Assembly (NCBI RefSeq): GCF_014202635.1
Contig: NZ_JACHHD010000005.1
Span: 1-64,000 of the forward strand
Direction: 5' to 3'
Source of the DNA: Faecalicoccus acidiformans
Lineage (GTDB): Bacteria; Bacillota_I; Bacilli_A; Erysipelotrichales; Erysipelotrichaceae
Length of the DNA: 64,000 nucleotides
This document shows, one piece after another, positions 17,723 through 41,659 of this stretch. Both the position numbers and the translations under genes were made by a program. Within the stretch, counting starts at the first letter, position 1, and each line of letters begins with the position of its first letter. The notes beneath the pieces are model-generated. The model was not told the origin of the DNA and did no database searches. It was given only the letters and a program-made list of their open reading frames with translations.

Positions 17723-17955
17723 CGTAAAGGCTATGAAGAGGACGAGTACTTTAGGAAAATGTTCAAGAGAGCTTTTGGATGGTGGAAAAAAGCACAGGAC
17801 CTGGAGGAATAAAACCTTGGAGCTGTATGTAGTTCCTGCATTAAAGGAAGCGCTGTTATTAGACAGCGACAGAGGTCTTTCAGAGTGATTTGAAAGATGA
17901 ATTAGGGTGGTAACACGAGCATTCGTCCCTTGGATGAGTGCTTTTTATTTTGAAA
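17723..17955 (+). ncRNA. Lysine T-box riboswitch
   Basis: Stem I opens with the k-turn/GA segment AAGAGGACGAGTA (about 17734-17746), then AGAGAG and GGATGGTG loop segments. The specifier region reads GGAAT-AAA-A with codon AAA (17811-17813) followed by the usual purine, i.e. lysine. A stem III-like hairpin CGCTGT...ACAGCG follows. The T-box bulge sequence AGGGTGGTAACACG precedes a terminator AGCATTCGTC / GATGAGTGCT with a T-rich tail. Uncharged tRNA-Lys should stabilise the antiterminator and allow lysS transcription. Confidence 0.92.
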
Positions 17956-38387: not shown

Positions 38388-38406
38388 ATATTCTATAATG
38401 GGGCTT

Positions 38407-39015
38407 ATGAGTCACTATTTTGAAAATGATATGGATTTAAAGCACGATCCTCATGAATTGCGATTTGAAATCAATCAAAAAGAGTATTGCCTGAAGACCG
38501 ATGCCGGAGTTTTTAGTAAGGATCGTTTAGATACGGGGACAAGACTCTTGTTAGAGACACTATTGGAGAAAGAAAAGGATCCGGTTACTACTTTGGATCT
38601 GGGATGCGGTATCGGACCGGTGGGAATTGTTTTGAAAGATCAATGGAATACACAGATGACAATGATCGATATTAATCAAAGAGCAGTGGATCTGGCGAGT
38701 GCGAACTTGAAACGATATGCGTTTTATGCAGATCTTTTTTGTCAAGATGGTATACAGGAAGGACAATATGCCTGCATCGTATTCAATCCGCCGATTCGGG
38801 CAGGCAAAAAAGTGATCTATCGCCTTTTTCAGGAAGCTGTTGACCACTTGAGCCGGGAAGGCCGTTTATGGGTCGTGATGCGCAAACAACATGGTGCTCA
38901 AAGTGCGATTCAGTATCTGGAAAGCCTGGGATGTTCTGTGAAAAAAGTCAATCGGGAAAAAGGATTTTGGATTTTTACAGCGCAGAAGAAAAGCACTGAG
39001 TCATCTAAGGATTAA
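38407..39015 (+). CDS. RsmC-like class I methyltransferase
   Basis: About 202 residues from ATG 38407 (MSHYFENDMDLKHDPHELRF). MTS/RsmC family: TDAGVFSKDRLDTGTRLLLE, SAM motif I TLDLGCGIGPVGIVL (about 61-75), MIDINQRAVDLASANL and the catalytic FNPPIRAGK (NPPF-like). RsmC methylates G1207 of 16S rRNA; short Firmicute forms are usually annotated this way. An ATG 9 nt earlier overlaps TATAAT (38394-38399), so it cannot be the start; from 38407 the -10 is 7 nt upstream with TTGATT 18 bp before it: likely leaderless. Confidence 0.85.
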   Translation: MSHYFENDMDLKHDPHELRFEINQKEYCLKTDAGVFSKDRLDTGTRLLLETLLEKEKDPVTTLDLGCGIGPVGIVLKDQWNTQMTMIDINQRAVDLASANLKRYAFYADLFCQDGIQEGQYACIVFNPPIRAGKKVIYRLFQEAVDHLSREGRLWVVMRKQHGAQSAIQYLESLGCSVKKVNREKGFWIFTAQKKSTESSKD

Positions 39016-39034
39016 GATGGCTGAGTGCTTTTTT
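38991..39034. terminator. Bidirectional terminator between convergent genes
   Basis: A 16-bp imperfect stem AAGCACTGAGTCATCT / AGATGGCTGAGTGCTT, A-rich before and T-rich after; it overlaps both stop codons. Confidence 0.85.
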
Positions 39035-41503
39035 ATTGACCGATAAAACTTGTGATTCCAATTCGGTATTAGACATTCGTCGGGCTCCGTTTGCCAAGAT
39101 GGCATTTTGGATCAGGCCATCTCCGGTGGCAACTGTGATTCGGTATTTCCCTTTGAGTTCATGGACCTTTCGCTCTATATACTGATCTGCGCTCTGGCCG
39201 GTTCTTGTATAGACGATATCCAAACCTCCCTGACGAAAAGAAGATCCGATGTTATGTGGCAGACGCCAGCCGTCAAAGACCAAAAGAATTTTGATTTGAC
39301 GATATCCTTGAAAATTGGAAATCTGATCGATCAAGGCGTCGCGTGCCAAATCGATTTTTGAATTCCCAAAAGTGCGCAAAGAATTCCAGCTGAAAATCAT
39401 ATTATAGCCATCAATGATCAGACATTCTTCCTTTTTGGGTTCAGAGTTTACTTTTTGTTCGTTCAGATCGATCTTACGTTTGATTTTTTTTGGCTTTTTT
39501 TCTTCTCGTTTGTTCTTTCCGCCTAAAGTATTAAAGACATTTTTCAGCTCTTCTTCATTGACAGTGTGTCTCACTCTTTGATAACTGTGTTCGTTTTGGG
39601 ATTTGGGCTGGATGTGCATATATTCGGCAACTTCGTCATAAGGAATATACGTTCCCGATCCATGGAAACAAAAGATCGAACCGGTTGGATTTTTTAAATC
39701 AGCTTCACTGTCGTAGCCGATTTCCTTTACGATCTTTTCTTGTTCAGCGCATGGATAATATCCGTCTAAAACACAGCTGTAACGCCCGGCTCCTCTGGTA
39801 TAGGCCATGACCTCATTTTGATAATTCATCAGTGTGCGGACTGGCCCCTTCCCGCTGATTTCCATGGTTTCGTTTCCAAGATCCTCAATCTTGACTTCTG
39901 CTTGTCTGGATTCCAGATCGAATAGAGCTTTGCTTAGACGAGAAGAAGGAACTTGCAGAGTAAAGCGATAATACGGCTCCAGCAAGATCGATTCTGCCAT
40001 CTTTAACCCTTGACGAACGGCTCGGTAAGTGGCTTGGCGAAAATCTCCGCCTTCTGTATGTTTGAGATGACTTTTTCCGGCAATCAAAGTGATTTTCATA
40101 TCCGTGATCGGTGAACCGGTCAATACGCCGCGATGTCTTTTTTCTTTCAAGTGTGTCAAGATCAGTCTTTGCCAGTTCAAAGCCAGGTCGTCGCTGGATA
40201 GGTCGGCTTCAAACTGCAGTCCTTTGCCTCTGGCTAAAGGTTCAAGCCGAAGATGGACCTCGGCATAGTGGCGCAAAGGTTCAAAATGCCCCATGCCAAT
40301 CACAGGTACCTTAATGGTTTCTTTATATAAAACTCGATCCAATCCAAAACCGACTGAGATTCCAGAGAGAGTCTCGATGCGTTTTTGAAGAACTTCCATT
40401 TGAATGTCACCCATCAGGCGCAAGCTGATTTGATGAGTGTTTTCGTTCATCTCGATCTGTAAAGAAGGATCTTCATTAGCCAGCTGATCCAGAATATCTT
40501 TTATTTCTAAGGGATCCACTCCTTGAGGAAGAAGAAGCCGATAGTTCAAATAAGCGTTGAGCATCGGGGGCGGAGAATCTTTTTCAAATCCTAGGCCTTG
40601 TCCTATTTCCGCATGCTCGATACCCTTTAGGGCAACTACCATGCCAGCCTGTGCTTGCGAAAGAAGCTGATACGAAGGGCCGTTATAAAGGCGGATCTGA
40701 TCCACTTTTTCGGTTTCTGAAATTTTTTGTTTTGGTTTCAAAGAGCCGCCTGTGATCTTGATGTGCGTCAAGCGGTTGCCTTGTCCATCTTTTGTGATCT
40801 TAAAGATACGGGCCCCAAACTCGGGCGGATAAAGGGGGGACTCGAAAAGCTGGATCATTTGATCCATCAATTCTTTCACTCCGTTATTCTTTAGAGCAGA
40901 CCCGAAAAAAACAGGAAAGAATTTTCGCTGTAAAAAAGCTTCCTGGATCATCTCTTGCGCTAAAGAGCCGTTTTCCATATAGGCATCCAATAAGGTATCA
41001 TCGCACAAGGAAACTTGTTCTTCAAAATCATCAGCAGAAGGAACTGCCATATGAGGAGAACATCGATCTTCCAGATCTTGAAGCAACTCTTCGGGCGAAT
41101 GATACGAGATATCCATCTTATTGATGAATACAATGACAGGGATATGATAGGACTCTAAGCATTTCCAAATGGTCTCGGTATGGGATTGTACACCATCCTG
41201 GCCATTGATGATCAAAACGGCTAAGTCCAAGATTCCTAAGGTGCGCTCCATTTCACTGGAAAAATCGATATGCCCGGGGGTGTCGATCAAAAAAATCTGA
41301 GCATCCTTATAGTTGAATGAAGCCTCTTTGGAGTATATCGTGATTCCGCGGTCGCGCTCTTGTGCATCGTAATCTAAAAATGCATCTTGATGATCGACGC
41401 GTCCCGCTTTTTTTAATAAGCCTGCATTGACAAGCATGCTTTCGATCGTGGTGGTTTTGCCGGCATCGACATGGGCAAGAATGCCTACAGTGATATATTT
41501 CAT
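39005..41503 (-). CDS. TetM/EF-G-like translational GTPase fused to a YacP/Rae1-type NYN nuclease domain
   Basis: About 832 residues from ATG 41503. Residues 1 to about 640 follow the ribosomal-protection/EF-G layout: ILAHVDAGKTTT (G1), RDRGITIYS (G2), DTPGHIDF (G3), FINKMD (G4), GSALKNNG (G5), then domains II-V. In domain IV the position of the TetM drug-displacing loop (YSPVS in TetM) reads SHLKHTEGGDFR, so tetracycline resistance is not implied. A basic linker (about 655-690) leads to an NYN/PIN-like domain (about 692-832) with all four expected acidic positions: IIDGYNMIF, LLVFDGW, SADQYIERK and VATGDGLIQ. That domain resembles B. subtilis YacP/Rae1, a ribosome-associated A-site mRNA endonuclease. 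TTGTTT-N18-TAGAAT lies 7 nt before the ATG with no Shine-Dalgarno. Confidence 0.88.
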   Translation of the reverse strand: MKYITVGILAHVDAGKTTTIESMLVNAGLLKKAGRVDHQDAFLDYDAQERDRGITIYSKEASFNYKDAQIFLIDTPGHIDFSSEMERTLGILDLAVLIINGQDGVQSHTETIWKCLESYHIPVIVFINKMDISYHSPEELLQDLEDRCSPHMAVPSADDFEEQVSLCDDTLLDAYMENGSLAQEMIQEAFLQRKFFPVFFGSALKNNGVKELMDQMIQLFESPLYPPEFGARIFKITKDGQGNRLTHIKITGGSLKPKQKISETEKVDQIRLYNGPSYQLLSQAQAGMVVALKGIEHAEIGQGLGFEKDSPPPMLNAYLNYRLLLPQGVDPLEIKDILDQLANEDPSLQIEMNENTHQISLRLMGDIQMEVLQKRIETLSGISVGFGLDRVLYKETIKVPVIGMGHFEPLRHYAEVHLRLEPLARGKGLQFEADLSSDDLALNWQRLILTHLKEKRHRGVLTGSPITDMKITLIAGKSHLKHTEGGDFRQATYRAVRQGLKMAESILLEPYYRFTLQVPSSRLSKALFDLESRQAEVKIEDLGNETMEISGKGPVRTLMNYQNEVMAYTRGAGRYSCVLDGYYPCAEQEKIVKEIGYDSEADLKNPTGSIFCFHGSGTYIPYDEVAEYMHIQPKSQNEHSYQRVRHTVNEEELKNVFNTLGGKNKREEKKPKKIKRKIDLNEQKVNSEPKKEECLIIDGYNMIFSWNSLRTFGNSKIDLARDALIDQISNFQGYRQIKILLVFDGWRLPHNIGSSFRQGGLDIVYTRTGQSADQYIERKVHELKGKYRITVATGDGLIQNAILANGARRMSNTELESQVLSVNKKALSHLNP

Positions 41504-41538: not shown

Positions 41539-41563
41539 AAAAAAACGCCTAAAAAGGCGTTTT
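41539..41563 (-). terminator. Terminator after tRNA-Ser
   Basis: On the minus strand AACGCC-TTTTTA-GGCGTT followed by a T run, directly after the tRNA 3' end. Its tail overlaps the -35 of the downstream GTPase-NYN gene. Confidence 0.75.
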
Positions 41564-41570
41564 GGACAAA

Positions 41571-41659
41571 TGGCGGAGACGGTGGGATTCGAACCCACGT
41601 GCCCGTGAAGGCAACTCGATTTCGAGTCGAGCTCGTTATGACCACTTCGATACGTCTCC
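41571..41659 (-). tRNA. tRNA-Ser, anticodon CGA
   Basis: Reverse strand: acceptor GGAGACG pairs with CGTCTCC, discriminator G, and CCA encoded (41573-41571). The anticodon arm is CTCGA-CTCGAAA-TCGAG, giving anticodon CGA for codon TCG. The long variable arm and the T loop GGTTCGAATCC are class II features expected of serine. Confidence 0.97.

Follow-up and report, generated by a model that had tools for sequence, protein, structure and literature searches.

A translational GTPase joined to a Rae1-type nuclease appears to take the place of free Rae1 in Erysipelotrichales and Clostridia

Introduction

The contig NZ_JACHHD010000005.1 of Faecalicoccus acidiformans, whose first 64,000 nucleotides (the window) were analysed, carries a gene in which a translational GTPase akin to the tetracycline ribosomal protection proteins (Tet RPPs) runs on into a nuclease domain. 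The question raised by this locus is whether such a protein shields the ribosome from a drug, or whether the GTPase carries a cutter of mRNA into the ribosome. Rae1, the sole characterised homologue of the nuclease part, works within the A site of the ribosome (PMC6613710, PMC10100781, PMC12320835) and cuts mRNA in a translation-dependent manner (PMC6613710, PMC10100781). Tet proteins of ten Clostridiales with an acquired YacP-like NYN domain were described by Atkinson in 2015 (BMC Genomics 16:78, PMC4342817), with the suggestion, in one paragraph, that Tet-NYN may be a new resistance mechanism via RNase activity (PMC4342817). A preliminary description of the window had supposed that the architecture might exist unnoticed under tetracycline-resistance labels; the annotations bear out the labels, but the 2015 paper shows that it had been noticed. 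No functional or experimental work on a GTPase-NYN fusion was found in our literature search; a 2018 survey of Rae1 distribution, which may mention fusions earlier, was outside its scope. What the present analysis adds to the 2015 account is the distribution of the fusion, the replacement of Rae1, a set of natural truncations and the subfamily to which the GTPase belongs. As far as we have checked, the evidence that the fusion is the Rae1 of these lineages is new.

Results

The gene and its domains

The coding sequence (41503..39005 including the stop codon, 832 amino acids, ATG start) lies on the minus strand, as do all parts of it given below; the preliminary description had given no strand. 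It is a single uninterrupted frame with zero internal stops and, in agreement with that description, holds a full translational GTPase, with EF-G-type domains I-V in Pfam, followed by an NYN domain. Domain I (residues 1-221, 40841..41503) matches GTP_EFTU at residues 2-221 (3.5e-53) and has the motifs G1 AHVDAGKT, G2 T55, G3 DTPGH with His78, and G4 NKMD. Domain II (residues 222-309, 40577..40840) is delimited by Pfam EF-G_D2 and the AlphaFold model, and domain III (residues 310-388, 40340..40576) by EFG_III. Domain IV (residues 389-503, 39995..40339) matches EFG_IV at residues 390-503 (8.4e-17), and at its tip (residues 478-489, 40037..40072) the protein has SHLKHTEGGDFR where the aligned TetM has YYSPVSTPADFR. 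Domain V (residues 504-588, 39740..39994) matches EFG_C at residues 507-588 (2.4e-15).

The nearest PDB relatives of the GTPase part are TetM, TetO and EF-G. The AlphaFold model (mean pLDDT 87) aligns over residues 1-624 with TetM of the ribosome-bound structure 3j9y (Z 31.5, 606 residues), with an rmsd of 12.2 as would be expected if domains are rotated. Since TetM can be followed up to residue 624, the C-terminal extension (residues 589-632, 39608..39739; hairpin SIFCFHGSGTYI and helix YDEVAEYMH) appears in this model to correspond to the C-terminal part of TetM, and the linker begins there. This linker (residues 633-691, 39431..39607) is charged and flexible, with pLDDT below 50 at residues 636-649 and 660-687, and contains a short conserved helix, NEEELKNVF.

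Structure matches stop at residue 622 to 624, and the identity of the nuclease rests on sequence. Residues 692-832 (39008..39430), on whose match to NYN/YacP the preliminary description had staked its reading, match strongly: NYN_YacP is found at residues 695-826 with E=1.2e-38 and 133.2 bits against a cut-off of 24.6, and the tail alone retrieves from the PDB only B. subtilis YacP/Rae1 (5mq8/5mq9, E=2e-15), so that the assignment to the Rae1/YacP type holds. The four catalytic acidic positions are intact, as had been claimed: in the alignment with 5mq8, D698 (39410..39412) corresponds to Rae1 D7, D744 (39272..39274) to D53, D773 (39185..39187) to D81 and D795 (39119..39121) to D104, and E777 (39173..39175) corresponds to E85.

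Around the gene, a terminator-like hairpin (41542-41563) lies directly upstream on the same strand and a tRNA-Ser (CGA) at 41571-41659 on the minus strand just beyond it; only about 40 bases are left for a promoter of the fusion gene. A convergent methyltransferase-like ORF (38398-39015) overlaps the end of the gene by 11 bases. Elsewhere in the window, a T-box leader (RF00230) is located at 17724-17933 on the plus strand.

Conservation of both active sites

The residues checked in G1, G2, G3 and G4, together with the catalytic His78, are identical in 97 of 97 fusions, and D698, D744, D773 and D795 are present in the same 97; the position of E777 holds E in 93 and Q in four. The KHT of the domain IV tip is retained in 93/97, and domain IV was the most conserved domain in all five pairwise comparisons of per-domain identity. 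One 764-aa fusion (G128, L081) has a degenerate domain IV tip and extension, with GTPase motifs and nuclease Asp residues intact.

Distribution of the fusion

NYN_YacP was found in 140 of the 196 genomes of the order to which the window belongs, nearly always in frames of 800-900 aa, and those short NYN frames that were inspected there turned out to lie at a contig edge, to belong to one split frame or to be derived truncations. Seven genomes (G038, G100, G131, G132, G156, G176, G071) had been candidates for a free nuclease and were rejected, the short frames sitting at contig ends. A GTDB genome scan gave at least 585 relatives of the fusion, and in the best 80 of these loci (Erysipelotrichaceae, Lachnospiraceae, Oscillospiraceae) the match covers all three of extension, linker and nuclease. 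The architecture is thus present in hundreds of genomes of Erysipelotrichales and Clostridia. That two separate genes were joined by a frame error or a misassembly can be rejected, given this recurrence of the same single frame across one order and one class, in hundreds of independent genomes; nothing was found that speaks for such an error, other than a split frame in one genome only (G045). There (L057:6942-9515), a GTPase of 712 aa and a nuclease of 160 aa occupy overlapping frames, with the switch in an A-rich stretch of the linker, which may reflect real fission, slippage or a sequencing error.

The fusions are annotated either as "TetM/TetW/TetO/TetS family ..." or as "translation factor GTPase family protein". 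They are mainly chromosomal and single copy, with two matches on large plasmids, and neither conserved neighbour genes nor a resistance cassette were found around the fusion loci. Taken together, the fusion is a genuine and widely distributed factor that is uncharacterised and carries the wrong label. Its nuclease function must be dispensable, since the domain is absent from a third of Clostridia and from part of the window's own family. In 17 of 19 same-order genomes that are without the nuclease, the GTPase is missing too.

Replacement of free Rae1

Among the 293 Clostridia genomes sampled, 193 have NYN_YacP, and among the matches listed 83 genomes carry it fused and 62 free. Only one of the 193 (G792) carries both, as judged from those listed matches, and it enters both the fused and the free count. 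Four Clostridia had been candidate double carriers, and in three of them the second match is partial and under the cut-off, which leaves G792. A Fisher's test of fused/free exclusivity gives about 2e-12 if genomes are treated as independent, a value that is far too strong given shared ancestry: the exclusivity is clade-structured, and species are therefore not independent trials. No second NYN_YacP domain was found in the F. acidiformans genome.

Gene order points the same way. Both genomes inspected with free rae1 (G704, G687) have the order mrnC-rlmB-rae1-sigma, where rlmB and mrnC are both rRNA-related genes. The six fusion genomes inspected, of which four belong to the window's order and two to Clostridia, all have nothing in the rae1 slot, and rlmB is directly followed by the sigma-factor gene (cysS-mrnC-rlmB; an mrnC ORF is recognisable in 5/6). 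Because the domain is fused and the slot between rlmB and sigma stands empty, the fusion is a Rae1-domain protein and not an orthologous rae1 gene. That the fusion has replaced free Rae1 in these lineages seems well supported by the genome comparison, and it is most simply explained by a transfer of the nuclease function to the GTPase and a loss of the free gene.

Some free NYN proteins deserve mention in their own right. One Clostridia genome (G728) has a free NYN protein of 190 aa (L187), with a domain nested among fused ones, together with an unlinked unfused GTPase, an arrangement that is possibly a fission. Free NYN_YacP proteins are also encoded on plasmids of ~100 kb from Clostridioides difficile and in records that are filed as phages of Listeria, Staphylococcus and Enterococcus (all within records H64-H75 and H81-H91); some of the phage-filed records may be host DNA.

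Natural truncations

In one genus (g4), five of the genomes examined have the full-length protein. In two others (G006, G099) domains I-III of the GTPase lead straight into linker and nuclease, with domains IV-V gone, and in a further two (G144, G134) the whole GTPase is gone and linker and nuclease are left, so the linker stays with the nuclease even there. The nuclease domains of all nine group in a single clade (support 100), so that loss is the simplest origin of the short forms. The I-III form retains every GTPase motif and both active sites. On the ribosome, RF3 works with a part that corresponds roughly to domains I-III. By this analogy, a ribosome-triggered GTPase that bears a nuclease where domain IV would be is a sensible machine, whereas a tetracycline-ejecting protein that lacks domain IV is not.

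The GTPase subfamily

As the preliminary description had proposed, the GTPase is not a canonical Tet RPP. Its best NCBIfam match is tet_protect (NF012153), with 394.5 bits against the curated cut-off of 775, and in our tree it falls outside the canonical Tet clade. At the domain IV tip, SHLKHTEGGDFR stands in the place of the YSPVS-type loop III. The fusions share their tip, AHxKHTxGGDFRxATYRAxRQGL, and the extension with unfused GTPases of 650 aa from Clostridia, Paenibacillus and Ligilactobacillus salivarius, and this KHT subfamily forms its own clade (support 100) beside the canonical Tet clade (support 99), as sister to the Tet RPPs. The replacement of the TetM loop is thus real, but it supports only in part the conclusion once drawn from it, that the protein is probably not a resistance protein: unfused GTPases carry the same KHT loop, which hence marks the subfamily and by itself cannot exclude drug protection.

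The fused proteins make up one branch (support 87) that takes in the unfused L. salivarius protein, and the tree is best read as one fusion event followed by at least one later loss. An earlier FastTree result with weak support, in which unfused GTPases in general lay inside the fused clade, was abandoned, since a better model puts most of them outside and only that of L. salivarius inside. Unfused KHT GTPases of ~650 aa (L208-L221, L197) were seen on megaplasmids of L. salivarius, that of UCC118 among them, and in genomes of Clostridia; they are labelled as TetM family although their loop is not that of TetM. With regard to TetB(P), no Clostridium perfringens plasmid matched the unfused subfamily at 1e-100. 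An unfused GTPase is found with no NYN protein of any kind in 3 of 14 NYN-less Clostridia, which indicates that such a GTPase can serve a function by itself; the idea that the GTPase always comes with the nuclease, suggested by the joint absence in 17/19 genomes, is refuted by the unfused subfamily. Together with free Rae1 the unfused GTPase occurs in 11/30 genomes, and the difference from 3/14 is too weak to use.

Discussion

We think it probable that the fusion is a replacement of Rae1 which its own translational GTPase takes to the ribosome, and that it cuts mRNA in the A site. What the genomes contribute to this reading are the two parts themselves with their intact active sites, the near-exclusivity with free rae1, the empty slot and the truncations. 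Both the replacement of Rae1 and the natural truncations lend weight to the idea put forward in the preliminary description, that a GTPase delivers an A-site cutter, and we regard this as the best explanation; the role in ribosome rescue that was suggested with it is plausible. Moreover, that some lineages have Rae1 solely as part of a GTPase able to enter the ribosome suggests that Rae1 depends on a factor for its access to the A site.

As to how this may work, we infer ribosome binding, A-site mRNA as the target, GTP control of the cut and the order of events. The GTPase in its GTP form would bind the factor site of a paused or stalled ribosome that has no A-site tRNA, like EF-G, TetM and RF3, and would thereby place the nuclease on the mRNA at or beside the A site. 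The nuclease would cleave the mRNA, and GTP hydrolysis would then free the factor from the ribosome. In EF-G and TetM it is domain IV that enters the A site. The nuclease would compete with it for the same space, so that cutting would take place before, after or beside domain IV entry, and the length of the linker would permit cutting before domain IV enters or after its exit. Besides this competition, the clade structure of the exclusivity, the dispensability of the nuclease function and the existence of unfused GTPases in genomes that lack any NYN protein count against our reading. It is tempting to speculate, as a possibility that falls somewhat short of probable, that one polypeptide combines GTP-dependent entry into stalled ribosomes with subsequent A-site cleavage, and that it is a chromosomal factor for stalled ribosomes in a large fraction of gut Clostridia and Erysipelotrichales, carried under resistance labels. 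The matter bears on how bacteria choose stalled messages for cutting. Hundreds of gut genomes have the gene, often under a tetracycline-resistance name, and resistome counts would be distorted if it confers no resistance.

Other readings have to be weighed. Drug protection, with a GTPase that still displaces tetracycline or a different A-site drug and a nuclease that assists, e.g. by clearing the stalled message, is the published proposal (Atkinson 2015, PMC4342817), and it is in line with the sister relation to Tet RPPs, with tet_protect as the best match (394 bits) and with the highly conserved domain IV tip. We nevertheless regard it as quite unlikely: the score is half of the curated cut-off of 775, the YSPVS loop is missing, the genes are mainly chromosomal and single copy with no cassette or conserved neighbours, and occurrence of the fusion follows the loss of free Rae1. 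In addition, two relatives have lost domain IV, the drug-displacing part, and have kept both active sites.

That the GTPase holds the nuclease at the ribosome for processing of rRNA, tRNA or assembly intermediates, and not for cutting A-site mRNA, is an unlikely alternative to which the position of free rae1 next to rlmB and mrnC lends some weight. NYN domains were also first predicted to be rRNA/tRNA processing enzymes (Anantharaman and Aravind 2006, according to the passage of PMC4342817 that cites it), yet Rae1 as the only characterised homologue cuts mRNA and does so in dependence on translation. The two halves could also act in part independently and be joined for the sake of dosage, one as an EF-G/EF4-like remodeller of stalled ribosomes and the other as a nuclease ungated by GTP. 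Unfused GTPases of the KHT subfamily, some with no NYN protein, the nuclease-only forms of G144 and G134 and the long linker predicted to be disordered would all fit such a pair, but the joint absence of the halves in 17/19 genomes and the invariance of both active sites in 97 fusions suggest coupling, and we consider it rather improbable.

The reading that we prefer, of a Rae1 delivered by its own GTPase, can finally be set beside the systems that are known. With Rae1/YacP of B. subtilis the fusion shares the NYN_YacP domain over 132 residues and the same acidic residues, whereas Rae1 is a free protein of 170-180 aa in an rlmB-rae1-sigma operon and the domain here is C-terminal to a GTPase and at another locus. 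The Tet-NYN proteins of Atkinson 2015 have the same combination of a Tet/EF-G-type GTPase with a C-terminal YacP-like NYN domain, and the protein of the window is a further member, from Erysipelotrichales. Tet RPPs (TetM, TetO; PDB 3j9y, 3j25) have domains I-V and a C-terminal extension in common with it, TetM being aligned over 606 residues, but identity is ~30%, the YSPVS loop is missing and an NYN tail is added. Closer are the unfused KHT-loop GTPases, with 40-45% identity over residues 1-632 and the same type of tip and extension, which end right behind the extension and have neither linker nor nuclease. Cleavage of A-site mRNA, here proposed for the fusion, has been shown for RelE (PMC12320835), while the RelE-family endonucleases differ in having another fold, a toxin-antitoxin context and no GTPase.
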